Below, in pieces: positions 7,751 to 61,386 of a stretch of 64,000 bases of DNA. Positions within the stretch are counted from its first letter, which is position 1. Each line of letters opens with the position of its first letter. The position numbers were made by a program, and so were the translations under genes. The notes beneath the pieces were generated by a model, which did not search any database, had not been told where the DNA came from, and saw only the letters and a list, made by a program, of their open reading frames with translations. The DNA is from Glaciozyma antarctica PI12 (lineage: Eukaryota; Basidiomycota; Microbotryomycetes; Kriegeriales; Camptobasidiaceae). The DNA lies in the NCBI GenBank assembly GCA_002917775.1, contig KZ627154.1, forward strand, positions 644,081 to 708,080, given 5' to 3'.

Positions 7751-8498
7751 GAAGCGCTTTAGCGGCGTTCCACCTTCAGTCGTAGCAGGCGCTGTGGAGT
7801 AGACTCATGAGCAGTGGCGACGGTGGGAAGGTCGCGAAGACTCGCCGGAACGGTGGCACTGGGAGCACTCTTCGGCGCTCTGGAGGACTGGGAGTAAGCT
7901 GGGGCTCACTTCAAACCACTCGAGCAGATTACCATGGCTGAAGTGCGCGACACGAAACGCGAAGTGGGAGCAGAGGTGACGGGGAGAAGGAGAGAGGGCG
8001 CCGCGTCGGCGGCGTCTTCCCTTCGCCTCCTTCCCCAACTCTCGCCAACGCCAGCAAGCTACGCCAAACAAGCAGCCGATACACGCCCTTTTCAGCTCTC
8101 CTCCCAGCAATCGTACTCCCCTGCCCATCTCAGCACGACCTCGCTCTTCCCGACTCTCCCGCCCGTCGCCTTCCCATCTCAACTCTCCAGCGCCGTTCCA
8201 CTCCACGCACAGAGCTCAGAGTGCCTGAATACAAATTAGCTAGTAAGGTTGTTGCTGCTCTTGAGGCGAGGGAAGCTGTGGAGGGGAGGCTGGAGAGGGC
8301 TCGCCTCTCTGTTGATCCCTCTCTCGCGCGTCGTGTGGCTGGGAAGCCGTGGGTGAGGGACAAGTGCTGATTGCTTCAGGTTACAGGTACTGGTTGCTCT
8401 CCCTTGCCGTTCTCGTCGCACCTGCTACCCCTCCAGTTGCCCCCACCGACCTCGCGCTACTCGACGCGACTTCCTCCCCACCCCTCTCGAGCTCCACC
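7751..8498. promoter_or_regulatory. Divergent promoter region, MYND-like gene / PSF1
   Basis: The MYND-like gene is read leftwards from about 7750 and PSF1 rightwards from 8499. The intervening sequence has short frames on both strands (for example 7934-8239) with no recognisable motif. Part of it is transcribed leader of PSF1, since the PSF1 start codon is completed only after an intron. Confidence 0.4.
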
Positions 8499-9209
8499 AG
8501 TGCGTCCTTCCTCTGCTGCGCTCCTCCTGCTCGTGCTCAAGTAGCTAACTCTCCCGTAGTGCTCGGAGACCACGGCAACGCCCTCGTCACGGAATCCCAC
8601 CGCTCCCTCCAAACGCGCACCCTCCTCGCCTACAACCCCTCCACCGTCCGCTCCGTCATCCGCGAATCCCACTCCCTAGACGGGGAGCTCGTCCGCGCCT
8701 CCGAGATCTTCTCCACTCAAGTCGAGCCGTCGGATGGGGACATCGCCGAGCTCACCGTCTCAGCCCTCGCGCTGCAGCGGAACAAGCGCGCGCTGCTGGT
8801 TTATCACCGGCAGCGGCTGGAGGTGCTCAAGGATGCGTTTTGGGAGAAGGGAGGAGTGCTATCGGCGGCGTTTGGGATGGAGACGGAGACGAGGAAGCAT
8901 ATGGCTCCGGTGGACGAGGCGTTTGCGAAGGGGTATTCGGAGCTCTGTCTTGCGTTCAAGACGAGCTGGTATGGGGAGGAGGGGCAAGGAGGGACGCAGC
9001 TTATGGACGCGACGGACTTGTTGGGAGGAGGGACGGAGGCGGAACCACCGCGCGACCTCTTTGTGAGCGTAAGGGTGTTGACGGACGTCGGAGAGGTCGA
9101 GACGGTCAGCGGGAGTCGGCTGAGCCTGAACAAGGGGAGTCAGTACTATCTGGCGAGGGAGGATGTCGAGAACCTCGTCGTACTGGGAGCGTTGGAGATT
9201 ATCGATTGA
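8499..9209 (+). CDS. PSF1: GINS complex subunit PSF1, start codon split by an intron
   Basis: PSF1 is one of four GINS subunits; with Cdc45 and Mcm2-7 it forms the CMG replicative helicase in the nucleus. The protein (216 aa; about 200 is usual) begins MLGDHGNALVTESHRS, matching the M-x-GD-x-x-x-x-L start of PSF1. It contains the helical A-domain signature LQRNKRALLVYHRQRL, then PPRDLFVSVRV, and the small B-domain ending LNKGSQYYLAREDVENLV. The ATG is assembled by splicing: A at 8499 after CTCCACC, a 60 bp intron 8500-8559 (donor GTGCGT, branch GCTAAC, acceptor TAG), then TG at 8560. The joined context CCACCATG is a near-ideal start. No other in-frame ATG precedes GDHGN. SLD5, a second GINS subunit, lies about 10 kb to the right. 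Confidence 0.93.
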   Translation, partial: SASFLCCAPPARAQVANSPVVLGDHGNALVTESHRSLQTRTLLAYNPSTVRSVIRESHSLDGELVRASEIFSTQVEPSDGDIAELTVSALALQRNKRALLVYHRQRLEVLKDAFWEKGGVLSAAFGMETETRKHMAPVDEAFAKGYSELCLAFKTSWYGEEGQGGTQLMDATDLLGGGTEAEPPRDLFVSVRVLTDVGEVETVSGSRLSLNKGSQYYLAREDVENLVVLGALEIID

Positions 9210-16351: not shown

Positions 16352-18562
16352 ATGTCGACCCAAATCAATGGATCTCATTCGCACAAAACGGTCGCGTTGC
16401 CAGGAGGGAGTCAACCGAGTCATGTGGGGTGCAAAGAGATGCTCGTTGAGAGGGCTCTTGCTAGGCTTAGGTGCGTTTTCGTCTGGGCAAGGAGTGGGGA
16501 AGGAGCTGATTCGGTGTGCGCGCGTAGGAGCATTCCTGGAGACCTTGAGAAGTACACTTTCCTCGCTGCTCTCAAGGAACGTAACGAGAACGTCTTCTAC
16601 TCGCTCGTCGGCAGCAACATGAAGGAATGCACTGTTCGTTCCATCTCCTCTCTCGTCCTATAGGCTCGTTGACTGAATCAACTCTCCCCCACCAGCCTCT
16701 AATTTACACTCCCGTGATCGGTTCGTCTCCCTCTTCACATGCATTCCTCCATCCCAACTAACCTCCTCTGCGCAGGACTCGCCTGCCAAAACTTCTCCCT
16801 CATCCACCCTCCCCCTCCCACGAACCCTTCCACCTCCACAGCGCTCTACCTCGCCGCTTCCGACCTCCTTAACCTCCCCACCATCATCGGGAACCTCAAA
16901 ACGCGTCTCCCCAAGGAGGAGATGGAGATCTGCGTCGTTACGGATGGGAGTAGGGTACTGGGATTGGGAGACCTTGGAGTCGGGGGAATGGGGATCAGTA
17001 TGGGCAAACTCAGTTTGTACGTCGCGGCGGGGGGAGTCAACCCCAAGGCTGTGAGTTTGCGTTTCTCGTCTCGTGAGGCGGACGATTAGCTGAACGCGTT
17101 CGTGCGCAGACCCTTCCTATCGTTCTGGATCTCGGAACCGATAATGAGAAGCTCTTGGCGGACCCTCTCTACGTCGGAGTCCGGCAACGAAGGATGGGCG
17201 ACGTCGAGGCCGAGGCGAGCCTTCTCTTGTCCTTTTCGCGTACTCAAGCTAACGGGGATGCGCAGGCCTACGTCGCGGCGTTCATGGCGGAGATGCACAA
17301 GAACTTCCCCAACATGATCATCCAATTCGAGGACTTCCACACCACTCTCGCCTTCCCCGTCCTCAAGAACAACGTCGAGCGATACCCGTTCGTCCCGTCA
17401 TTCCCTCTACGTATCTACTTAATAACTCTCATCAAACGCAGCTGCTTCAACGACGACGTTCGTGCCAGCCTCCATCCCGCCCTCACCTTGCTAACCCCCT
17501 TCCATAGATCCAAGGAACCGGCGCCGTCGTCCTCTCCGGCGCTATCCGCGCGTTCCAAATGACTGGAATCCCTCTCAAGGACCAACGAATTCTCTTCTTT
17601 GGAGCTGGATCCTCGGGCGTAGGAGTTGCTGAGACTATCTGCCGCTACTTTGTCCTCCAGGGGATCCCAGAGGAGGAAGCAAAGAAGATGTTCTGGCTCG
17701 TCGATTCCAAGGTCTGTCCCTCTCTTCTCTTTCTTCGTACGCGAACTGATGTTGTGGAACGCAGGGACTCGTGGCGAATAACCGAGGAGACGCCCTCCCC
17801 GAACACAAGCGCTACCTCTCCCGCCCCGAGCCCGACGCTCCCACTCTCCGCACTCTCCACTCCGTCGTCTCCCACGTCCGTCCCACGGCCCTCCTCGGCC
17901 TCTCCACCGTCGGCGGGACCTTCACCCGTCCCATCCTCGAGCTCATGGCGGAGATGAACGAGCTCCCGATCGTTTTTGCTTTGAGTAACCCGGTGCAGCA
18001 GGCGGAATGTACGTTTGAGGAAGCGGTCGAGGGGACGGGAGGGAGGGTGCTGTTTGCGAGTGGGAGTCCGTTTGATAAGGTTATGTATCGCGGGAAGATG
18101 GTGGAGGCGGGACAGGGGAATAACATGGTTCGTTCCTTCGTCTCTACTTTCTTTTGCGCCGATGGTACTGATCCCGAGCGTACAGTATGTCTTCCCTGGA
18201 CTGGGATTGGGAGCGATCCTCGCCAACGTCAAGACCGTTCGTCCCCTTCCCTCCCTGTCGCTCTCTCCTTCTCTACTAACCTCCCGCCCTCACAGATCCC
18301 CGAAGCGATGGTACACGCCTCCGCGCAAGCTCTCGCCGACTCCCTCACCCCCTCCGAACGCGCCCGTCACCTCCTCTACCCCGACGTAGAGCGTATCCGA
18401 GAAGTCTCTATCGCCATCGCCATCGGAGTGATTCGTGCGGCGCAGAGGGAGGGAGTGGATAGGAATGAGGGGTTGAGGGGATTGAATGATGAGGAGTTGG
18501 AGAGGAAGATTAGGGGACAGATGTATCATCCGTTGGTGGCGATGGGGGAGGAGGAGGAGTAG
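16352..18562 (+). CDS. MAE1: Malic enzyme (oxaloacetate-decarboxylating malate dehydrogenase)
   Basis: Converts malate to pyruvate, CO2 and NAD(P)H; in oleaginous yeasts it is discussed as an NADPH source. About ten exons spell the whole family: [35 protein letters not shown] (catalytic Tyr in IYTP), [31 protein letters not shown] (metal-binding EDF), [16 protein letters not shown], the Rossmann motif [29 protein letters not shown] and [10 protein letters not shown]. The intron before [15 protein letters not shown] appears to use a GC donor (GAG|GCGAGC..GCTAAC..CAG at about 17216-17267). Start chosen at ATG 16352, giving a short N-terminus; no strong mitochondrial presequence is visible from this Met, so the cytosol is likely. 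NAD versus NADP preference cannot be decided here. Confidence 0.92.
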
Positions 18563-20162: not shown

Positions 20163-23100
20163 TTGCTGAACGACTTCCTCCTCTCTCTCTCCCCGCGCGC
20201 CACTCGCTCTCAGCTCACAGCCTCAGCCCAAGGCTCATACTCAGCCACAAAGTCTCACAGTTCGGCAAAGGACTCGGTGCAGGACGGGTTCACCCAGGAA
20301 AGATCGCCTACCGCCCAGACTCAAGACTCTCCCTGCGCCGGGTCGACAGCGAAGAACTCGAACGCTCGAACGGCGATGGCTCTTCCTTCACCATCGCCAG
20401 ACGGTATGGCACCACCACGACCCTCTCTTCACCGTTCTACGACGACACCGTATCCTCCCCAAGCAGCGTCAACTCCGCCTCCCACTCACGCCTCCGCCCC
20501 ATCGCCACCTCCCGTCGAACCTCGTGCACGAGCCAACACGACTACTGCCGCGCCTCGAAGCGTAGGGAGTATCTGGGGCGGCGACGGAGGAGAAGGACCG
20601 GTGGGAGAACGCATTTACCCTCATGCGTCTGTTCGACATTTCCGCCGAGGACCGCGCGTGGAGGAGAGTGAGGGGAGCGTGAATGGGGCGAGTACGGAGT
20701 GGTGGAGCGTTGCAGAGGATACGGGGACGGCTAGTGCGTCCAGTGCGTCCAAGAGTGCTGTACACGGGGTGGGGACGAATGCGACGGAAGTATCGAGCGC
20801 TTGGGGGAGTGAGGTTGGAGAGGTCGATACGCCTGGATCGAACGAGGAGGAGAGGTGGCCTATGGCTGTGCGATTCGAGCATGAGGTATCGGCCGATGGA
20901 GAGAACTTGGTCGTTACAGGTCGGCAAGGGGAGCTAAGGAGTTGCGAGGACGAGGTGCGTTCTCCTCCTCCGTCTCCGTACTCCCAACTAACCGCTCTCG
21001 ATCCAGCCGATCCACTGCCCCGGTGCCGTACAATCCTACGGCGTCCTCATCGCCTTCGACGAAGACCCACACGGGCACTTGATCGTCGCCCAAGTCTCCG
21101 AAGTACGTTCCCCGCTCCCCCTCGTACCCCCTCTCTAACCCCGCACAGAACTCGACGCGCCTCCTAGGTCTCTCACCAGCAACCCTCTTCGCCCTCCCCT
21201 GCCTCACCCACATCCTCCCCTCCTCCTCAACCCTCCGTGACGCTCTCTTCATCATCGACGAACAGGATCTCGAATCCGACGACCCGGAACAATCTCCTTA
21301 TGGGTTCGAGCTCGAGGGATCGGGGTGGACGGCATTCGCGGTCGTTCATCGACCAGATCGAGTGGGGAGACCACGGCGCGCGGTGCTGGAATTGGAGCCA
21401 GTGGGGGATTTTGGACCTCCGCGGGAGGAGGGGATGGAGGTGGTGCAGGAGGAGGGGGATGGGAGAGCGGGGATGGAGAGTGGGGAGACGCGGGTGCCGA
21501 GTGAGGAGGAGCTGAGGACGAGCACGGTTAGTGCGGTGAGACCGCTCAAGGAGATGGCGAGGATTAGGAAGAGGAGGGAGAGGGAGGGGGCGAAAGGGGC
21601 GGGGGGGAGGGGAAGCGATTTACAGATCGTTCAGCTGTTGAGTCAGGTGGACCAGGAACTGCTCAAGGCGACCGATTTGAAGACCTTTACCAAGGTTCGT
21701 TCGCTCTCCTTCTCCGCACGACCGCCCTAATCGACGACGACGACGATGAACAGATCACCGCGAGCGTCTTCACCGAATTGACCGAGTTCACTCGCGCAAT
21801 GGTCTACGAATTCGACGAATCCTGGAACGGCCAAGTCGTCGCCGAGCAAGTCGACTACAACGAAAACGAAGGACCTCTTTCACGGCCTCCACTTCCCCGC
21901 AGGCGACATCCCCGCTCAAGCACGCGAGTTGTACCGCGTCAACAAGGTCCGGTTGTTGTATGATCGCGAGGCGAAGACGGCCAGGATGTGCTGCAGGGAT
22001 TTGAGCGAGGTGGAGAACCTGCTCGATATGTCGCATGCGTTCTTGCGCGCCATGTCTCCTATCCACATTCAGTACATCCCCTCCTCCCTCCCTCCGTTCC
22101 TCACTGACGCCCGAACCGCAGGTACCTAGCCAACATGGGCGTACGAGCAACGATGAGTATCTCGATCGTCGTCTTCGGCAAGCTCTGGGGACTCGTAGCG
22201 CTCCATCACTACGGGACCGAAGGACACCGCGTCTCGTTCCCTATGCGTCAGCTCTGTCGACTTCTCTCCGATTCGATAGGAAGGAACGTCGAGCGGTTGA
22301 CGATGGCGAAGAGGTTGGCGGTGCGCAAGGTCATTAATAGTGCGTTCCTTCCTCCCGAGTTTGTTCAGAGGGTCGAGCTGATTGAGAACGCAGCGATACC
22401 TTCGTCGGAGAATCCTGGAGGGTACATCGTGGCGACGGCTGAGGACCTGCTTGGGCTCTTTAACGCCGACTTCGGCTGCTTGAGCATCGGGGAGGAAGCG
22501 AAGGTGAGCTTGCGTCCGCGATTGTCGTTAGAAGCGAGGCTGATGAGGGGCGCAGATTCTTGGCAAGGTCGACAACTCGCAGGAACTGTTGGCGGTTCTC
22601 GAGTACCTTCGTCGGAAGTGCTACACGTGCGTCGTTCTTCACAGCCTGGTTTCGAGTGAGGCGAGCTGACGCCCCGTGCAGCACCGTTCAAGTCACTACC
22701 AACATCGCGCTCGACTACCCGGATATCGATTTCGCAGGTGGCGTGCGCGACATCGCTGGTTTCCTAACCGTACCTCTCTCGCGCGGCGGGAAGGACTTTA
22801 TCGTCTTCTGCCGACGAGGGCAGCTCGAGGTACGTCCCCTCTCTCCTTCCCAGCGCGCCGCTAATCCCCGCTCGCAGCACATTCGATGGGGTGGGAATCC
22901 CTACAAGAACACGCCTGGTATCGATGGAGCCTCGGCGCTTGAGCCGAGGAAGAGCTTTCGAGCTTGGAGCGAGACGGTCGTGGGCAAGTGCAAGAGTTGG
23001 ACGGACGAGCAGCAGGATACGCCTCAGGTTCTCCTGCTTATATACGGCAAGGTGCGTCTTCCTACTCGACGAGCTGTGGGGTGTTTGCTCGACGAGCGAC

Positions 23101-24857
23101 GCAGTTTATCGACGTGTGGCGGCAGAAGGAGAGCTTGCTGTCGGCTACGCGGTTGGCGAACCTCCTCCTGCTCGACGCGAGCAAAGCTGGTACGTTCGAT
23201 TCTTCCACCTCGTCGTGCACTCGCTAACGCTTCTTTCGCAGTTCGGACCCCGCTCAATTCGATTATCGGCTACCTCGAGATCGCGCTCAACGGGACTTTG
23301 GACCTCGAGACGCGCGAGAACATCTCGACGAGTTATGCGGCCTCGCGTACGTTGGTGCACGTTATTAATGACTTGCTCGTGCGTTCTTACCTCAGCCTTT
23401 CGAGTGCTTTCGCTGATGCGCGAGTTCTCAGGACCTCACGCGCACCGAGGAAGGGAACGAGCTCTTCCTCCGAGATCCTTTCGACCTCCCCTCGACGATC
23501 GAAGGCGCCCTCGCGATCCACCGCAAGGAAGCCATCCGACGAGGTCTCAAGATGGAAGTCATCGAATCGCCTCAAGGGACGCCTGCGACGCTCATTGGCG
23601 ACCCGGCGAAGATTCAGAGGATCATTGGATGCGTCGTTTCGAATGCGGTCGCGCATACGCATGAGGGGGGGATCTTGATCGAGTGGGGAGAGTTGGTGGA
23701 TCATAATGTTGAGGATGCGAAGGAGAAGGAGGACTCGATTCGGATTGGGATCAGCATGTGCGTTCCTTTCTCCGCTTCATCGCGGAGTCTTGAAGCTGAC
23801 GCTCGTTCGCTCGCAGAACCGATACTGGGTACGGTGTCGTCTCCTTCGGCCACGGCGGGCGCCTCGCTGACCTTTTGTGACTTGCGCAGCGTCGGTATCG
23901 CGGACGACAAGCTCGAGCTCATCTTCCGCGAATTCGAGCACATGTCGACAATTCAGGAAGGCGCACAACCGACGGAGCTGTCTCCTATCAGCGTCGGTCT
24001 CGGTCTCGCCATCGTCGCTCGCATCGTTCGCACCATCGGCGGGCAACTCCGCGTCGAGTCGAAGCTCGGCCAAGGCACCAAATTCACCTTCATCCTCCCC
24101 TTCCGCCTCCCCTCCACCTCCGCGACCTCCTCTCCTCGACCTACGGTGGACGCCGCAGACTCGATCTTTGCCGCCTTCTCCTCCAAACCTCCTTCCGACT
24201 CGGCACGCCCTCTCGCCCCTCCCCGTCCTCGCGGCAACTCGAACATCGCACTCGGTCGACCGCGCAAGCAGACCTCCGCGAGCGAGGGCAACAAGTCGGA
24301 GCTCGAAGAGATCCTCGGCGCACTCTCTTCCTCGCACATGCACCCGGACAGCACGGCGTACTCGACCCGGACGTCGGGGATCAAGACTCCCCAATCTTCG
24401 ACCGCCGCTTCCCCTCCTCTCGTCAATTCGAGCTCGTACTTTGGCACCCCACTCCCCATCTCCTCCCGCCCCGAACTCAGTCATCACAACCTCGACAAAG
24501 CAGCTCTCCTCGAAGAATCTTCATTCCCTCCTGGCGAGGCCAAGGTTCAGTCGCTACCCAACTTCTCCCGCTCGTCGTCGGCGGTGAGGACGGGTGGATC
24601 GCTGGCTGCTGAGGTGCGGTTGTCGAGGGCGAGTATGTCGGGAGTGAGGTTCGAGGCGGAGGACAGGGAGAGCGAGGGGTCGATGGGGTTGATGGGTTCG
24701 CTGTCGGACTTTTCGATCGTGCGGTATTTCTCCCTTCTGACGAGGCGGAGTACTGATGCCGTCTCGGCTTCCTCAGGACGGAATGGAGGCGACGATGGAT
24801 GATAGAGATCCTGGGGCGGTGGCGAAGGCGCAGGAGTGGCTGTTGGCGGATTCGTGA
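20163..24857 (+). CDS. Fungal phytochrome (red-light photoreceptor) with degenerate H-box and no receiver domain
   Basis: Order: disordered Pro/Ser-rich N-terminus, PAS, GAF, PHY, HisKA-like and HATPase domains, then a Ser-rich tail. The bilin-attachment region reads SCEDEPIHCPGAVQSYG, with the Cys placed as in bacterial and fungal phytochromes. GAF has FPAGDIPAQARELY (DIP motif) and SPIHIQYLANMGVRATMS with the conserved His, then LWGLVALHHYG. The PHY tongue motif PRxSFxxW is present (EPRKSFRAW). HisKA reads LLLDASKAVRTPLNSIIGYL: the expected His before the RTPLN block is Lys. ATP-binding boxes remain: NAVAHT (N), DTGYGV (G1), IFREFEHM (F), GLGLAIV (G2), GQGTKF (G3). A final exon gives DGMEATMDDRDPGAVAKAQE and a stop; no receiver domain follows. 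Start may be 20163 or 20376. At least twelve introns. Confidence 0.88.
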
Positions 24858-25107: not shown

Positions 25108-26607
25108 ATGGTCAACCCAGGCGCGTTACCAGTGCGTTACGTCTCCAGCGCGCTCCTCGCTGTGCATCGCCGCTGACCGTTGGCTCAACAGGGGTCGGAT
25201 CTCGAGGAAGCCCTGAGCCGGTCTCTCGCGTCGTTCAAGCTACAAAGGTGCGCAGGGGTGATACTGCACTGAAGAGGAGCTGATCCAAAATCTCTACAGC
25301 TGGGGAGAAGCGGAGGAACACGCGTCGCGAGGGCTGGAGCTGATACCGGACGGCGGGGACGAGTCACCTGCTTGGAAGTTCTATTATCGGAGGGGAGCTG
25401 CTCGACGGGAGCTCGGTAGGACAAGAGAGGCGGAACAAGGTGCGAAACTGGTGGTCGGAGCACGCTCGAGGAGAGAGCTGATCAGTTGCTCCGACAGACC
25501 TCCAAAGCTCCGTTGAGGCAGGAGCGGGACGTTCGGTCGCCAGGGAGCTGGCAGAGCTTCGCTACCTCCTCTCAACCTCTTCGACCCCATCTTCGTCTTT
25601 CCGCGCCCAGGCGATATCGAGCCCGGCGTCGACCTTTGATTCCCTCCACAGCGATTCTCCTCACGAAGGCCCCACCCCTCCCTTCTTCCTCAACCCCTCC
25701 CTGGGCAAGCAGTCCGGTCTCTTCGCCAACCGCCCTCTCCATCGCGGCGAGCTTTTATCCGCCGAACCTCCCCTCTTCACCGTTCCCGACCTCAGCGCCG
25801 TCGTCTCGAAATCCGCAACCCTCTCTCCCTCCCACCTCACCACTTTCTACGCCCTCGCAAACGCTTTTACCGACCGCCATCGCGCCCTAGGAACCTTTGA
25901 AACGAATGCTTTTGGGCTGGAGAACGGCGCCTCGGCAATCTTCCCCATCGCAGCGCGGTTCAACCATTCCTGCTCACCGAGCGCGAAGGCGAGCTGGAAC
26001 GCTCCCTCGGGGTGTCTTCGCATCTTCGCATTGCGGGATATCGCCGTCGGAGAGGAGATCTTCACGTCGTACATAGGACGCAAGCAGCTGTACGGAGCGA
26101 CGCGTGAATCACGACGAGGTGTTCTGGAATTCGGCTGGAACTTCGCCTGCACATGCGTCGTATGCTCGCTCGAAGGCGATGAGAGGTGGGCGAGCGATAG
26201 GAGAAGGTTGAGGATTGCGGCGATTAAGGAGAGCTTACCGAGGTTGGAACCGGTCGATGCGGAGGCTCATCTTCGGGCGAGCGGGAGGGCGTTGAGGTTG
26301 CTCGAGGAGGAGGGGTATTGGATCGATAGCGAGGAGTTTGCGAGCCATGCGGCGAGCGTGTGTGCTTATCATTCGGATTGGAGCTCGGCGAGTAGGTGGG
26401 GGAAGCTCGACGTGGCAGGCGAGTAGGGATGAATATGGGGAGGATCATCCGGTGGCGGCGGGGATGAAGGAGCTCGCTGAGGAGCCGAGGCGGTTCGCAC
26501 TTGCGGGAAAAGGAGCGCACTTGGATCTGGAGAAGGTGACGGAGGAGGCGTTGGGAAGGTGGGTGGCGATTTTGCGACGCAGAGAGAAGGAAGCTGATGA
26601 GGTTTGA
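25108..26607 (+). CDS. TPR-SET domain protein (SMYD-like), apparent frameshift near the 3' end
   Basis: SET-domain lysine methyltransferase-like protein. Four exons: MVNPGALP; SDLEEALSRSLASFKLQ; a TPR-like segment (WGEAEEHASRGLELIP, WKFYYRRGAARRELGRTREAEQ); then the SET region: NPSLGKQSGLFANRPLHRGE (N-SET), FNHSCSPSAKASWN (NHS motif, SAM binding), LRDIAVGEEIFTSYI (GEE..YI core), and post-SET FACTCVVCSLEGDER. The frame closes at 26426 after SSASRWGKLDVAGE. One base removed in 26398-26410 (a G5 run and CTCGACG) would restore WQASRDEYGEDHPVAAGMKE and a stop at 26607, which continues the helical C-terminus expected of this family. I read this as an assembly indel or recent frameshift. Substrate unknown; histone and non-histone targets occur in the family. 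Confidence 0.75.
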
Positions 26608-27551
26608 GCAGGCTCGAAAAGGGGACGACGCAGTCGGCGTGGTCGTTGCGGCTGGGCTTATTGGGATTTGGGAGCAGCGAGTAGAGCTTGCAAAGGCATC
26701 TTGGTGTTGAGCGGGCCAGAGAGAGCAGACTGCGGCCCTCCAGCAGCGAGAAGCTGGGTCTAAACGCCAGAACGCGAGCGGATAGGTTTGAGGAGAAGGG
26801 ATGCGCATTCCAGAACGTCTTCAGCTCGCAGGTGTACGCATCCTTCAAGCACTGCTGCCGAGCAGCCACAGCGAGCCATCTCCCTCCCACCGCCTGAGCG
26901 TGAGGTCCACACTGCTTTGTCGTCCCCTCCCCCCGCCTTGCCCGCTGCAGATACGTCTTTGGAACAGGGACAGGCACGTCATCAGTATTGATTCTGGTTG
27001 CTCGAAGAGCGTTCAGTCCACGCAGTTAGCTCCCTCCCTCCTGGTGTGTCTCCCGCACGCCCGCCCACTGCTCCTCCTCCGCCGCCTTAGGCACGAACAG
27101 ACTGTATCCCCAGCAGCTGACAACATGGTACATGACACGAGGCTGCAGTTGGCGCCTTCGAGCGCGCGGAGGAGAGTCGAAGGCTGGTGGAGGAGCTGGC
27201 AAGACTGGTGGAGTCGAAGGCGCTGAGGCAGGTAGCGCGACGCGAAGGCTTGCGGGATCCTTTGCTGCTTGGGTCCTGAAAGGCTCTTCGTGACCTGGCG
27301 TGAGGTTGAGTGGTTGGGAGGATGAAGAGAAGCGACCGCGCTGTTCCGCTCCTTCAGCTCTGCCACAACGCTCGACAGATCTGCTCGCAAGCTCCAAAGA
27401 CTGCTTTGGCTACATTCTGCTCTTCTGAAGGTGCTTTGATCAGCAGCGCGAACACAGGAGCTGGGTACCCCGGTCTCACGAGCTCGTCTGGTGCGTCCCC
27501 CTCGACCCGTTCTCGCCGCCGACCCTGCTGACCCCAGACAGCTTCGCCAAG
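26608..27551. other. Region with weak minus-strand coding signs
   Basis: 944 bp upstream of ASA1. On the minus strand, fragments such as LWSLRADLSSVVAELKERN (about 27370-27430) and VMYHVVSCWGYSLFVPKAAE (about 27060-27120) look protein-like, and ELKTFWNAHPFSSNLSARVL occurs near 26780-26840, but they lie in different frames and I could not join them with convincing introns. No gene called. Confidence 0.3.
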
Positions 27552-51600: not shown

Positions 51601-52070
51601 TACTCGTTCACAGCGGACGCACGATCTTCTTCTGCTCCAACCACTCCTTCTCCGCTACGGGGTTGCGCCTAAGTACTCGTCGGCGTCAGCTCCCCTCCCT
51701 CCACCGCTCCGCCGACTCACCAAGGCGCAGCTCCCAGCTTGAGATCCAGCTTCATCCCGGTACGTGGTTGATCGAATGGGTTTGTAGCGTTCCTATCCAG
51801 CTCCGGGCTCTGTCAGGGAAGGGTTGAGTGAAGAGGCCTTAGCGCGGAGCGAAGGAGACTTACCCAGAGGCCTTTGAAGATGGTGATTCCGGCGGTGGCG
51901 GGTGCCTTGAGAGAGGGAGAGAGACGTGCCAGTACAAGGAAGGTCGGTGTGGGGAGGTCAGGAAGAAGAGAAGGGTCCACTGCACGGCCGCGCCGGCAAG
52001 AGGGATCGAGGGGGACCGCGCGCCGAGGAGAAGGCCTTGAGGAAGGTACGGAACGAATCGAAGGGTACAT
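48695..52070 (-). CDS. Coiled-coil protein with a YbjQ-like (DUF74) domain and Gln-rich tail
   Basis: About a dozen exons. N-terminal part: ATAGITIFKGLW, PELDRNATNPFDQPRTGMKL and a long coiled coil (RNPVAEKEWLEQKK; KKEKEEHEKLVL; QLAEIDVRERSAKEAELRAK; QQKELAARQKAFEESQKYIA). Middle: RELLEFKHSLGLDD, PEFWKLSEEDQYHLESLSSE, GFGPYYDDEEDAHRSAPG. Then a YbjQ-like domain: FVCVTTDSAPRLQVVQIIG, AHALKSDIANDRRHACSSLI, ALALGANAVLGLKYDSSAP, in which AxxLGANAVxGxxxD is the family core. After it come Gly/Gln-rich repeats, KEKEMREKELREMQKK, poly-Gln/Lys and SINSPNFSKKDQYERAQAEK. YbjQ proteins are small and mostly bacterial, of unclear function. The proposed Met at 52070 lies only 20 bp past the stop of RFC5 upstream, so the true start may differ. 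Confidence 0.65.
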
Positions 52071-52090
52071 TGCGAGAGACGTCTGCGGAA

Positions 52091-54082
52091 CTAATCGAGA
52101 CTGAAGCCGAGATGATGCTCTGCGTGAAGAACAGAAGTCAGCGCAAGGAAGATACGGAGTCCGGAGTCCGACTTGCGCTTGTATATGCCTGATGAGGTGG
52201 AGAGAGTGGTTAGCTGCGTCGATGGCAAAAGTAGAAAGAACCGCACTCATAATCTTCGCACAAAAAGCTGGAAGAAGCAAGGCGTCAGTCGGCGAGCACA
52301 AAAACGTGTGCGGGAACATACCCTCGAGGTGGAAGATGGCCTTGCTGCCTAACCGCAGGCGGTGCTCGTAGAACGCAGCCCAGTACACGATATCCCCCTT
52401 CAGCTCCTCGTCCACCCTCTCGACCAGACGTCGCGAGATCGTCTGCGTCCGAGGAGCGGCGTCAGTCTTGCGCTTCTCGCAACGCCAAGGAGGAACGCAC
52501 CGCAATGACCAACGGCGCCGGGATACAGTGCACGAGAAGTTCATAGAGCATACCCCTCACCACCAGCAGCTGTTCAGGCGTCTGCACCGCGATGATCTTC
52601 TCCGCTGCCTTGCCCGCGTACTTCTCCCAATCCGGCCTCGGTACGGCGTTGATATCATCCGAGCGCTGGCGGTTGCCAGTGAGGAGCGAGTGGGAGGAAG
52701 CGATGGTCTTGAAGGTAGGGTCTTGCACGTGGAGGGCTTCGAGGGAGAGGAGGGCGCGGCGAAGGTTGCCTTGCGAGATGCGGGCGAGGAGAGTCGAGAC
52801 GTGGGGAGGGAGGTTTAGGGATTCCTTCTTCGAGACGCTGGCAAGAACTTTGCACATCTGCAACATGGATCAGTAGCTGTCGAGTAGGCGAGCTCGTGGG
52901 AACGCACCTCGTCTTCAGAAGGAGCACCGACGCGCAGAAGGAGGCAGCGACTTCGGATGGGACCGATGATGCGGCTGGTAGAGTTGGCACAGAGAATGAC
53001 ACGGAGAGTGGCGGTGTACTTCTCCATCGTTCGACGGAGGGCGGATTGGGCGTCGCGGGAGAGGAGGTCGGCTTCGTTGATGATGACAACTGCGCAAGCT
53101 TCGTGAGCGAGATGCGGACTTCAAGAGAGCAAGACGGACCCTTGAACCTCTTCTTCGCGTTCAGGTCGACTTGCTGAGTCTGAGCGATGTCTTTGAGGAT
53201 CTCCTGGACGACTGAACGATCCCAGTTGCCGGCATCACTGGGAGAGAAGGTCAGGGAGGAGCCCTCAACGCAAAGGGGACTGCTTACCTCGGGGTGAGCT
53301 CGATGTGGTAGTTACTCTGGACGATGTTGATGTCGAGCTTCTTCTTGCTTGGCGTGAGGAAGGTGCGCTGCTCGATACGAAGCTGGGGGAGGGAGAGAGG
53401 CGCGATCAGCTGCTGCCGCTCGACCGTTCGGCCGCGCGTGTCCTACGACGCATCTGAGGTGCCGTCTTAATGGGTAGTCAAGCTGGCGACTTCAGCATCG
53501 CAACATGCTCGGAAAGCTCGCCGGAAAGAGAGCTCAGCACGTCCTCCTCTCGAAGGTCGGCGGGACGACGCCGTCACAGGGCCAGCGTCTTCCGCCGCGT
53601 GCACCCAAGGTAGAGAGGGAATTAAGTCTAGCCTCAGGCAGGAGAAACTGCACCGGCTGAGCTGGTAGCTGGTACAGCCATCACGCGCAGGACGCGACCC
53701 CCCGCCTTGCTCCCTCAGATCCTCGTCCCTCGCCGACCACGGCCTCTCCCGTTGCTCCGCTACTGATAATCCGTACGTCGACAGCACTTCCGAGAACGCC
53801 CAGTGCCCCATAACCTCGCCCACTCACCTTCTCAACCCCAGGCCCAAACAGCTCCCTCAGCACACACATAATCCTCGTCTTCTTCCCCGCCCCACTCGGT
53901 CCGTAGAAGAGCGTATGCGGAAAGTCACTTGAAGCCTGGGTTGTAAGCGTTAGCACCAGGCTGCCGAAGCGGTGAGGAGGAGGACGAACGAGCGCGCGCA
54001 GACGGGCGGAGAGCTCGCTGTGGTAGTCGAGGGCGTCGAGCGTGCGCGGGCGATGCTTGTCGACGAAGAGAGAGCCTGACAT
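52091..54082 (-). CDS. RFC5: Replication factor C small subunit, RFC5 (human RFC3)
   Basis: AAA+ clamp-loader subunit that helps load PCNA, shared by RFC, Ctf18-RFC and Rad17-type complexes. The protein begins MSGSLFVDKHRPRTLDALDY; Walker A is YGPSGAGKKTRIM, a form particular to this subunit; then LRELFGPGVEK, SDAGNWDRSVVQEILKDIAQ, the Walker B-like VVIINEADLLSRDAQSALRR, TMEKYTATLRVILCANSTSR, the SRC motif (IRSRCLLLRVGAPSEDE), and C-terminal VERVDEELKGDIVYWAAFYE, HRLRLGSKAIFHLEAFCAKI. About a dozen exons. A final short intron (52115-52150) gives the tail DSGLQHHLGFSLD and a stop at 52091; without splicing the same stop is used. NCS6 lies 139 bp upstream on the same strand. Confidence 0.92.
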
Positions 54083-56893: not shown

Positions 56894-57313
56894 GCCAGGA
56901 GCTCGCGAACACCTCGACGCAGCCTTGCCAGCTCAGTGAGATCTCAGGCAGCCCGCTTCCCGACCTCACTCTGTCAAGCGAGCATCAGCCTCCAGCTCGT
57001 GCATGCGGGAAGAGCAGTCTCACCAGGGAGTCCCTCCAGCCTCTCTAGAAGCCGAGCCAGCCGAGTCGAGTGACGAACCCTTCGGAGAGGTCTGGCGCGG
57101 GGAACCGTGAGCTCTTTGTGCCACGGAGAGGAGAAAACCAGGCGCAGTGACTGGTACTTACACAGACCATGAGCAAGACGAGCAGCGTTGTCGGCGAGGG
57201 GAAGGAGGACAAGCAGCTCCGAGTCGATGCGCCCCCTCCTCTTCCCTCCACGACACACTCGCCAGCACACGAACTAGCGCCGCCAACTCCAGATCTTCAG
57301 CATCAGCAGAACG

Positions 57314-58563
57314 ATGCAGCCTAATCCTGAGCAGGAGAAACCTACGGCCCCCGTTCAGAGCTCTCACCCGCTATCAGGCCGCGCTATCATCGTTACCGGT
57401 AGGCCCCTCGTGCTGTGCTTCAGGCGAGAGCTCATGCGCTTCTCGCTCCACAGGAGCTGCCTCAGGGATCGGTCGTGCCGTGGCTCTCCACCTCGCTTCT
57501 CTCGGCGTGCGGCTGGCGTTGACGGACGTGGACGCGGAGGGAGGCAAGGCCGTGTGCCAGGTGCCTGCGGCAGCTGGGGAACAAGATCGACGTTGTCTTT
57601 GCTACGCTAGACGTTTCGAGTACGTTGCTTTGAAGGCGAAGGCGGAGAGGGAGAGCAAGAGGGAGCTGATGCGGGGTTGGTGTTGCGCAGGTGATGAGGG
57701 CGTTGGGAAGCTCGTGCGGACCTTCCTGAAGACGTACAAGAAGCTGGATGGGCTGGTGAACTGTGCTGGTGCGCATCTCGCTGGAGGAGCACGCCTGGAG
57801 AGGGTTGAGACGAAGCTGATACGCCTCTTCGCAGGTATCAATCTTCCCTCGCCGCCTGCACACGAAGTGACGATGGACTTTTACAACAAGACGATGAGCG
57901 TGAACGCCAAAGGCACTTTCAGCTTCTGCTCGCACTATATCAGGGACATTGTCGCGCCGACCAACCTCTCCGAAGCCCCGAGAGGCGGCTATGCGATCGT
58001 GTGAGTCTCTCGCGCGCTCCATTCTCAGCTCGTACTGATCCTGCTACTTCCCAGAAACGTTGGGAGTACGGCGAGCTTGAAGGGATTGGAGAACAGCAGT
58101 GCCTACGTGAGCCTAGCCGCTCTCGCACGTCAATTCGTCCCCCGTTGACCTCTGTCCGTCCTCAGTGCGCATCCAAACACGCCGTCCTCGGGTTTTCCCG
58201 CGCTATGGCAATAGAGTACGCCAAAGATGCGATCCGCGTCAACGTTGTCGCCCCAGGTCCGTCCTTTCCGCGTTCCCCAGCACCCATCCTCTTTTCTGAC
58301 CCCTCTCGCGAAGGTCCCATCGACACTCCTGCTCCATGCACGCAACTCACTTGACGCTTCAGACGTGACGGTTGAAGAAGCGTGCGAGGTACTTCCGATG
58401 AAGCGGCTTGGAAAGGCGGAAGAGGTGGCGTCGGTGGTGGCGTTCTTGCTCGGGTCAGATTCGAGCTACGTGACGGTGCGTTCCTCGCTGCCTTTGGGAC
58501 GTGGGAGCTGATTATGTGGTGCAGGGTGCGGTAATTCCTGTTGATGGAGGGTGGACAGCCTGA
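57314..58563 (+). CDS. Short-chain dehydrogenase/reductase (classical SDR), apparent 1-base insertion
   Basis: NAD(P)-dependent oxidoreductase of the FabG-like classical type. HPLSGRAIIVTGAASGIGRA carries the TGxxxGIG cofactor motif; ALTDVDAEGGKAV has the Asp after the second strand that often favours NAD. Then KLDGLVNCAGIN (NAG-like), NVGSTASLKG (catalytic Ser), AYCASKHAVLGF (YxxxK), RVNVVAPGPIDTP and the C-terminal LGSDSSYVTG, VIPVDGGWTA. About eight exons. Near 57564 the frame is off by one: the bases GTGCCTGCGG would read on as LRQLGNKIDVVFATLD if one C were absent. All catalytic residues are present, so I take the indel as an assembly error. Substrate unknown. Confidence 0.85.
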
Positions 58564-58753: not shown

Positions 58754-61386
58754 TCAAGCCGACTCCGACTTGTCCTTCCTCCCGAACCTCAAGATCGACA
58801 TCCTCTTCGACTTCTTCTCCTTCTTCGCCGGCGCCGAATCGACCATCTGCTCCACTCCTCGCTCCACCGTCCCTACTCCCGCCGTTGGCTCCGTGGCTTC
58901 CGCAGGACGCATGAAGGACGCGGCGATGGGCGTGGTGCTCTTCGCTTCGGCGGGAGAGGTAGCGGCGGGTTCGACCTTGGGAGACTCGATTGGGGAGGCA
59001 GGTGTCGATTCGGGGGCGGTGGGGATCTCAGTCGCAGAAGTGGGGGCCGAAGGGACTGCGCGAGTCGTCGTGTCCACGCTCGGCTCAGTGCTGATTGCGC
59101 TCAAGGTCGGGTCGGTAGTCGGGCTGGCAGGGAGGGGAGTGTTTAGGGGAGTTTTGGAGACCGTGTGCTTCGAGGTGGAAGGGCGAGGCTGGATTCAAGT
59201 GGTCAGCGTGCCGTGGACGGAGAGTGAGGAGAGAACGAACCTGAAGGTCGGCTCCCTGCGGAATTACAGCGTCGTCGTCGACGGCGCCAGACTTGACTTT
59301 CTTGTCGAGGGCCGCGCCGCTCAGCGCACCGGGCAAAGGGACGTACTCAGGCTGCGTGGAGGAGTCAGCTTCGCAACGCCAGAGGTCAAGAACAATGCGC
59401 ACAGTCTCCTCCTCCTCCTCCGCCTCCGTCGTCGACGTGAGCTTGGTCTTCGCCTCGTCAACTAGCTCCTCGTCGCTGCTCGCCGCCTCAATCTCCTCGT
59501 CCGATGTCTCTACACCGCTGACCGCCGCTCCGGCACCCGCTGCGACTCCAGCATGCTGTACCGCCGTCGGTACAGGTCCTTGAAGAGGCGTAAGGACGTT
59601 TACGTGCGAGGTTAGGGTCGACTTGGTGTGCTGTCGTCGCCCACGCATCAGCCCTCGATCCTCGCTCGGCTGCGAAGAAGAACGCACCTTCTGAATCTCC
59701 TCCCACCACCCCTTGAGTTCCTCCCAGCTCTTCGCGCGATACTGCCTCGTAACCTCCTTGTGCTGAACTCCGAGGCTCCCGTAAAGACCTCCAACCGCCG
59801 ACGTCTCCCGTCCTTCAATCGTGAACTTGGCCTCCTTCTGCCTCCCGTTTGACGAAGGCTCTGGCGTAGGCAAGGGCCCGAGAGTCGAGAGGGGGAGGAA
59901 GAGGGAGAGGTAGGGCTTGTCGACTGGCGCGTCGGACGATCGGTACTCGTGCAAGAAGCCAGCGGGCGTGAGGACGAAGAAGCCTGCGTGCGAAGGGCTT
60001 AGCGCGCGCTGTCGCGGGAAGAAGGAACGGGACGAACCGCTCTTCCAGTTCTTGACGAATCGCTTCTTGCGCTCGAGGACGCCTTCCTTGATCGGGAGAG
60101 CCGAGGGGTCGGAGCGATTGGGGTACTCGATCAGGTCGAGGTCGCGAGTGGGTGTCGCGGAGTGGTTGAGCTTCTTGAGCTTCGTGAAGTGATTCCATTC
60201 GGCCTGCGAAGTGTGTGAGTGTGAGCGAAATCGCGAGAACCGAAATAAGAGGGAGCATACGGCAGGCGTGATAGCGATAACTTCGCTGGTGAGCGTGGTG
60301 GGGCGTTTCTGCGCTGCGACGAGGAGCTTTGAGCTGCGAAAGTCGGTGAGTCGATGCTGTGGCTGGCGCAGTGAGAGGTACGGACTTGGCAGTCTCCCAG
60401 GTCTTCCAGCACAACCCAACCGTGTCGAAAACGCTCTTCTCGAACGCAGCGGTCTTGTCCTGCCAAATGAGCGCCAGCGAAAGCAGCTCATTCTCCTTGG
60501 ACACGAGCGCGCGCATCTGCATCTCCGCCGCTGAACGAACGACAAAAGGATCCTCCTCAGCAGTGAGTTCAAGCGGGCTCGACTTGTAGGCCGCGATCGA
60601 TTTGGATAGATGGGTGAGGACACCGACGGAGGAGTCCCTGTGGCGGCGAGGTCAGCAGCGCGACTACGAATGCTAAGGATTGAAAGCCGTACCTCTCTTT
60701 GACCACAACGTCGGCGAACTTGTTGACCTCCTTGTCGAGCGCAGCGATGTGGGCCTTGATGTCGACTCGCTGCAGCATAGGCGTTAGCTCTCTCCTGTCC
60801 TCCAGCTTTGAACAATTCACCAGCTTCTTCAGCGGCGCCACCACCTCGTCCTGAACGAGCTTCGACAGCTCCAGGTGCTCTTCTGCCTCGACGTTCGTGC
60901 CGTCCTTGATTTGACGTAGGAGTTCCGCCCAGCCGGCCTGCTGACCTTCGGGGACCGGAGTAGGGAGGAAGAGAGAGGACTCGGGGAAGGGAGTGAGGAT
61001 GGCGGAGGAAGTCGAGAGGTTGAGAAGGATCTTGGAGTGCGAATGGTGAGCTTGAGCGATGCCTGGCGTGGAAGAGAGGGCGTCAGCACAACCGCGCTAA
61101 CAACAACAAGTTACACGAGCGGAGGGGCCTCACCTTCGAAGTACGCCGCGAGAGACTTGGTGATGCGCTTGACCTCGTGCAGGCGGTTGATGAGGATATC
61201 GGAGGGCCGCGTACCTTCGCGCGGTGCTGGGTCGGTGGGAGCTGGCGGCAAGGAGGTCAGCTGAGGCCGTGTGGGGGGGACTTCTGAGGACGGCGTACCA
61301 GTGGCGGGCCCGGCAACCGTCTCCGCGGCAGGTACTAGCGGTGGAGTCTTGTGCGTGCTCCGCTTGGAGCTGTTACGAGACAGCAT
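58754..61386 (-). CDS. SLM1: SLM1/SLM2-family PI(4,5)P2-binding protein
   Basis: Slm proteins bind PI(4,5)P2 at eisosomes and act as TORC2 targets in sphingolipid and actin control. The N-terminus is Ser/Pro-rich (MLSRNSSKRSTHKTPPLV). An F-BAR-like helical region follows: PSDILINRLHEVKRITKSLA, AQAHHSHSKILLNLSTSSAI, EEHLELSKLVQDEVVAPLKK, RVDIKAHIAALDKEVNKFAD, LTHLSKSIAAYKSSP. The PH domain contains LPIKEGVLERKKRFVKNWKS, FFVLTPAGFLHEYRSSDAPV, FTIEGRETSAVGGLYGSLG and SWEELKGWWEEIQK. The tail is Glu/Ala/Pro-rich and ends in a basic patch (KKEKKSKRMSILRFGRK). About nine exons. Start chosen at the first Met of the open frame; upstream codons lack support. Confidence 0.88.

Follow-up and report, generated by a model that had tools for sequence, protein, structure and literature searches.

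Fungal phytochromes (Fph, group VIII hybrid histidine kinases) are reported to have a conserved His (Li et al., 2015, PMC4525182), and a 2023 review states that all of them carry a linked receiver (PMC10813442). For plants, the former source suggests that His and receiver disappeared together, and it places this event in the streptophyte ancestor (PMC4525182). Phytochromes are dimers according to the review, some plant ones heterodimers (PMC10813442), and the FphB of Aspergillus fumigatus is reported to bind FphA (PMC12607886). A literature search by titles and abstract openings, most subscription journals being outside its coverage, returned no fungal phytochrome devoid of the His or of the receiver. 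Here we describe a phytochrome gene of Glaciozyma antarctica PI12 that appears to have lost both. It occupies positions 20376-24857 (+) of a stretch of 64,000 nucleotides (C9:644081-708080, hereafter the window) in a genome of ~20 Mb and 18 contigs. To a preliminary description of this gene, made from the DNA alone, the present analysis adds a canonical paralogue on contig C6, a probable orthologue in Phenoliferia psychrophenolica (RQP46_005265, 759 aa, hereafter P0061), an altered N-box and a frame break in the exon coding for the GAF domain.

The H-box, the receiver and the ATP-binding half

The H-box of the window phytochrome reads DASKA|VRTPLN and is divided between two exons. Exon 10 (23105..23189), with the first half of the DHp helix, ends in LLLLDASKA, where the Lys codon (23183-23185) stands at the phospho-His site (H0) and the Ala codon (23186-23188) at the site of the acidic residue that follows it (H+1, usually Glu). 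Exon 11 (23242..23378) starts with VRTPLN, retaining the Thr at H+4, and codes for most of HisKA/DHp (HisKA, 43.1 bits). The intron in between (23190..23241, 52 nt, GTACGT...CTAAC...CAG) is ordinary for this gene, so that the replacement of the His by Lys and of the acid by Ala across this junction, as claimed in the preliminary description, was borne out. In order to place these residues among those of relatives, as had been proposed there, we have used a profile alignment of 236 database proteins (the best 120 of 1729 plus the best 120 of 1365 matches, duplicates taken once) together with the two copies of this genome. Seven of the 236, P0061 included, have no letters at the H-box. Among the remaining 229 listed relatives H0 is His in 228 and Gln in one, H+1 is Glu in 225 and H+4 is Thr in 227. 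From H-8 to H+13 the window copy departs from the commonest residue only at H-4, H-3, H0, H+1, H+8 and H+11. Given 228 His in 229 relatives, the replacement in the window copy is not due to chance.

We looked for both an alternative exon with a normal H-box and a downstream receiver, either of which would contradict the preliminary description. None of the 23 in-frame donor and acceptor choices for the H-box intron (GT or GC donors, AG acceptors, at least 25 nt, the chosen one included) puts a His ahead of RTPLN, which excludes a missed or alternative exon of this kind, and retention of the intron leads to a stop codon. No second, unsplit H-box-like peptide was found on either strand of the window, a search that an intron-split one would escape. 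A normal His hidden by miscalled bases or a missed exon is extremely improbable: indel errors are probable in this contig, as discussed below, but AAAGCT lies at least four base changes away from every His-Glu codon pair, so that four substitutions would be needed, nothing is unusual in the codons on either side or in the splice sites, and the receiver is absent too.

With regard to the receiver, a Pfam search of the genome gave 10 Response_reg matches, none of them within the window. This search misses receivers cut by introns (two in locus L028 were not listed by it), and we have therefore built a phytochrome-receiver profile from the receivers of 148 database relatives and searched the six frames of the window in pieces. 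The only match in the window was a chance one (E 6.9, near 41.9 kb counted along the reverse strand); the receiver of the C6 phytochrome (E 4e-46) and the two in L028 were recovered by that search. A receiver overlooked in the window can thus be set aside, and the earlier statement that none follows the tail stands. Aligned with the paralogue, the tail after the ATPase domain corresponds to the linker that leads up to the receiver there; the final residues bear a loose resemblance to what follows that receiver in the paralogue, a weak hint of a deletion. Elsewhere in the genome, receiver matches lie by eye in hybrid kinases (C9:408821 and C11:563938) and in a Skn7-like protein (C3:3166). Two more histidine kinases with two receivers (L028, C9:714106 and C9:718999) are found 6-11 kb past the window end; their H-boxes (SHELRTPLHGI) are near-identical and they are apparently a tandem pair.

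The photosensory half keeps its motifs. The 15 exons of the gene are separated by 14 introns (46-61 nt), all of them GT..CAG (14/14) and 9 of the 14 with a donor matching GTRNGT. Scanned in two parts, one before and one after the frame break, the protein matched the Pfam families PAS_2 (40.4 bits), GAF (27.3) and PHY (88.1) in that order, followed in the kinase half by HisKA and HATPase_c (65.4). Pfam gave no PAS domain between PHY and HisKA. Exon 1 (20376..20954) codes for a Ser/Pro-rich N-terminus and the start of PAS_2, including the bilin-binding Cys (codon 20943-20945) in SCEDE; exon 2 (21007..21102) continues PAS_2 (PIHCPGAVQSYGVLIAFDED), and exon 3 (21149..21694) holds its remainder and the linker to GAF. 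The GAF exon 4 (21754..22071) contains the DIP motif (21905-21913, in DIPAQAR) and the GAF His (22064-22066). Exons 5-7 (22122-22339, 22394-22503 and 22556-22626) cover the end of GAF and the start of PHY, and exons 8-9 (22682-22829 and 22878-23051) PHY with PRKSFRAW (22944-22967). All are on the forward strand, and SPIHIQ and LHHYG are retained as well. The reading of these motifs agrees with the earlier claim that the photosensory Cys, the DIP motif, the GAF His and PRxSFxxW are conserved.

In the ATP-binding half the preliminary description, which had the N, G1, F, G2 and G3 boxes intact, holds for G1, F and G2 but not for the N-box. Exon 12 (23432..23757) carries the end of the DHp and HATPase_c with the N-box (23621-23659, IIGCVVSNAVAHT), in which the first Asn has become Cys and the Lys Ala. 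The Asn is found in 213 of the 225 rows with letters there, the C6 copy included; the Lys site is variable. The G1 box DTGVGI (23817..23898) begins in the very short exon 13 (23817-23828), is split by an intron (23829-23889) and is completed in exon 14 (23890..24718), which also codes for the F box (IFREFE), the G2 box VGLGLA (23993-24010), GQGTKF (G3) and a Ser/Pro-rich tail. Exon 15 (24777..24857) adds the final 26 residues and the stop, with no receiver after it.

A way to judge whether the kinase half is decaying is to count departures at conserved columns, defined here over 219 canonical rows. At columns conserved in at least 95% of them the window copy departs in 3 of 64 positions of GAF, 2 of 43 of PHY, 5 of 29 of HisKA and none of 25 of HATPase_c; at 90% the figures are 9/89, 4/65, 6/39 and 1/30. 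HisKA has a nominal excess of changes over the rest (Fisher p 0.018). Because the departures are so few, with none in HATPase_c at the stricter threshold, the kinase half is, as far as its sequence tells, not generally eroded, and the loss is centred on the phosphate centre. The conserved ATP-binding half would fit a use of ATP in trans or by allostery.

The frame break in the GAF exon

Upstream of the part treated in the preliminary description, the reading frame of exon 4 shifts by one base between NENE and DLFHGLHFPA (at about 21855..21885, + strand), the upstream frame ending in ...VVAEQVDYNENE and the downstream one starting with DLFHGLHFPAGDIP.... Both the C6 paralogue and P0061 read through at this position, and apart from it the frame of the window gene is open through all 15 exons. 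Were the break real, the chromophore pocket would be lost and there would be no signalling left to explain. A small intron as its cause is disfavoured, the nearby GT..AG pairs being 22-37 nt apart with poor donors, against 46-61 nt for the introns of this gene. Also disfavoured is an intron of 79 nt (21850-21928), proposed by the coding model when no frame steps are allowed, which would delete a conserved segment ending in GLHFPA. The codon model used for counting frame breaks is a weak one (0.14 nats per codon) and was applied to the region 19.0-27.1 kb only.

The neighbouring gene is broken in a similar way. A SET-domain gene (~25108-26609, +) has a one-base break near 26410 that puts its conserved tail (DEYGEDHPVA...) out of frame with the SET part, and its relatives P0237 and P0238 (89 and 87% identical over the aligned parts) read through. 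Since two adjoining genes are broken by one base where relatives are not, indel errors in this stretch would explain both breaks, and an assembly error is likely. The sequence is not poor everywhere, as no break is seen by eye in the malic enzyme gene (16.3-18.6 kb) or in the C6 phytochrome.

The alternative is a decaying gene: this strain would truly carry the break, relaxed constraint would have let the kinase centre go, and the protein would not function. The break itself speaks for decay, as does the faster evolution of the window copy (end branch 0.3 plus 0.3 shared, against 0.18 for C6). The otherwise open frame with its 14 regular introns, the few conserved sites altered outside HisKA, the second break in the SET gene, which points to indel errors, and the existence of a relative in a named genus (Phenoliferia) all speak against decay. 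We regard a decaying gene as unlikely, and the gene probably codes for a working protein.

Other genes of the window are recorded here for orientation. The malic enzyme gene (16352-18562, +) has many exons and short introns. Pfam identified pieces of genes for GINS PSF1 (8319-9206, +), a replication factor C subunit (51816-52553, -), a short-chain dehydrogenase (57114-58001, +) and a PH-domain protein (59088-61079, -).

The paralogue on contig C6 and the age of the duplication

The PHY domain was matched at two loci of the genome only, the window and C6. The C6 phytochrome (L027:1463-6412, in our own reading) is canonical: it has CEDE, its H-box reads NASHE|VRTPLN, and both the ATPase boxes and a receiver (DLCLMDLQMP) are present. 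Its nearest relative among the listed matches is the canonical phytochrome P0015 of Phenoliferia (62%), and its grouping with the Kriegeriales is weak (74/53). The window copy is at most 64% identical to any listed phytochrome match. Within the DHp the two copies of this genome are identical at 54 of 81 residues, and mixed window/C6 dimers are therefore plausible. The separate receiver or Hpt partner whose search had been proposed in the preliminary description was also looked for; the genome has the receivers described above and one Hpt locus. The genome holds, besides, one heme oxygenase locus and two velvet loci.

P. psychrophenolica (Phenoliferia is placed in the Kriegeriales, Microbotryomycetes) has P0061 in addition to the canonical P0015. 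GAF, PHY and HATPase_c are present in P0061, and its gene model gave no HisKA match and no receiver; the model joins WREK to YLEL, so that the H-box segment is missing. By BLAST the window protein is its best match (715 bits), followed by the C6 copy (678) and the best of 119 other listed proteins (672). In trees with the H-box columns masked, the window copy and P0061 formed a clade with support of 100/98 (44 rows) and 100/100 (25 rows). P0061 is, on these comparisons, a probable orthologue of the window copy; no further candidate was found among the 236 listed proteins.

A tree that makes the window and C6 copies each other's closest relatives is rejected when P0061 is in the set (approximately unbiased (AU) test, p 4e-5) and not rejected when it is left out (p 0.108), and a recent duplication confined to this species is discarded to the same extent. 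Holding both pseudo-copies together with four canonical rows of Kriegeriales type is not rejected (p 0.08); with three such rows it is (p 0.019).

Several other Microbotryomycetes deserve mention. P0022 (Microbotryomycetes sp. JL201, OIV83_006334) has Gln at the phospho-His site and keeps its receiver; we have considered it as a second pseudo-kinase lineage, but its near neighbour P0025 has the His and, with the receiver kept, one recent change, or else an error, is the more likely cause. P0212 (Microbotryum intermedium BQ2448_230), found beside a canonical copy, is a very divergent second phytochrome (branch 1.89, 36% identity to P0061). Leucosporidium creatinivorum, among other Microbotryomycetes, has a second copy as well.

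Possible outputs and comparison with known systems

Lacking both the phospho-His and a receiver, the window protein cannot run the fungal His-Asp relay in cis, and very probably has no phosphorelay of its own, if it is made. The preliminary description had suggested an output other than the His-Asp relay; the Lys H-box and the missing receiver support that much, but the choice among the outputs it listed is not settled by them. Three outputs fit what the sequence would allow: the protein could regulate the C6 phytochrome as its partner, act as a phosphatase on receivers, or serve as a docking platform of the plant kind. The retained residues prove neither of the first two.

We favour, at roughly even chances, a duplicated phytochrome turned into a photosensory pseudo-histidine-kinase that would signal by protein contact, most likely on its C6 paralogue. 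The protein would bind biliverdin, switch with red light and dimerise; unable to carry phosphate, it would signal through contact with other proteins, and by pairing with the complete C6 phytochrome it could make a shared Hpt-type phosphorelay tunable by light. The heme oxygenase locus (G000:C11:1171002-1171477; L033, L034) is a possible source of biliverdin, and a hydrophobic C-terminal stretch follows it (by eye). An output through C6 is preferred because a complete sister is present, phytochromes are dimeric and those of A. fumigatus contact each other; the C6 phytochrome or its relay as the main target is proposed tentatively, at a little under even confidence.

Some of the results presented above weigh against this proposal. 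The gene is not a single open reading frame, given the break in exon 4. Without the two sites that prompted the analysis, the HisKA excess shrinks to 3/27 versus 5/132 (p 0.14), and P0031, in which the His is retained, also departs at 4 of the same 29 HisKA columns. The H-box segment of P0061 is missing from an automatic gene model, which leaves a loss common to both genes unproved. P0061 also has a long branch (1.07), and the rejection of sister copies depends on its presence.

The retention of the H+4 Thr and of the entire VRTPLN could also be read as a light-gated phosphatase without kinase, one that dropped H0 and H+1, kept H+4 and the ATP site, and would dephosphorylate a separate receiver, either the one on the C6 phytochrome or one belonging to another hybrid kinase. 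In CrdS of Myxococcus the H+1 acid is reported to be needed for the kinase only and H+4 for the phosphatase only, and the mutant with Ala for the His still dephosphorylates its receiver (half-life of 2.6 min versus 53.5 without the protein); the same division of roles is given for several HisKA proteins (PMC3510030). The phytochrome BphP of Deinococcus is described as a light-activated phosphatase that needs ATP (PMC8292422). However, Thr at H+4 is kept in nearly all listed relatives anyway, and is hence little informative, PleC is reported to need the His for its phosphatase activity (PMC3510030), and Thr at H+4 abolished the phosphatase activity of the Deinococcus protein (PMC8292422), a result that lowers this explanation slightly. 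We consider it improbable.

The kinase half might instead serve as in plants, the DHp and ATPase parts forming a dimer and docking platform on which light controls the binding of transcription regulators (velvet, white-collar type) and no phosphorelay is touched. VeA of Aspergillus nidulans is reported to bind part of the FphA kinase region and LreB the FphA C-terminus (PMC10813442), this genome has two velvet loci, and plant phytochromes are described as having lost the His and the receiver (PMC4525182). Pure docking would not require a conserved ATP site, and we think this output, too, is not likely. A Ser/Thr protein kinase under light control, an output put forward for plant phytochromes (PMC4525182, PMC4965123), is highly improbable here: Pfam gave no protein-kinase domain on either side of the break in the window protein, and a later review assigns the plant module no phosphorylating function (PMC10813442).

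Returning to the pseudo-histidine-kinase acting on its paralogue, its fullest form is rather doubtful as a whole. In that form a fungal lineage would have independently repeated the step taken by plant phytochromes: one of two duplicates would have shed the phospho-His, the H+1 acid and the receiver while light sensing, the ATP site and the H+4 Thr stayed in place, and would now serve the complete copy in the same cell as a regulatory subunit or a receiver phosphatase gated by light. If true, one cell would contain a natural two-receptor system in which the sensing of light is separated from the transfer of phosphate, and the change behind the plant phytochromes would have taken place a second time, independently. 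Phytochrome signalling without kinase chemistry could then become accessible to simple genetics, the host being yeast-like.

Among described systems, the bacterial DivL of Caulobacter is likewise reported as a pseudo-histidine kinase, one that has Tyr in place of the H-box residue and retains its remaining boxes; unlike the window copy, it has a PAS sensor and no light input, and its ATP domain is dispensable (PMC4211667). The BphP of Deinococcus is described as a phytochrome without kinase activity, but it keeps the His and has Glu at H+4 (PMC8292422). Closer at hand, FphB of A. fumigatus is also a second, half-disabled phytochrome beside an intact one, and would be the mirror image of the window copy, being reported to have lost the chromophore Cys and to keep kinase and receiver (PMC12607886). 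With fungal phytochromes such as FphA of A. nidulans and the C6 copy, the window protein shares the order PAS_2-GAF-PHY, HisKA, HATPase_c, and differs from them in the absence of the phospho-His, the H+1 acid and the receiver. Plant phytochromes, with their histidine-kinase-related domain, are described as having likewise lost the phospho-His and the receiver and kept the kinase fold and the photosensor; the window copy has no PAS-PAS repeat, carries its bilin Cys in the N-terminal PAS and would be of independent origin. Judged by its sequence, the window gene thus departs from the described fungal phytochromes and follows the plant pattern, in which His and receiver seem to have been lost together.

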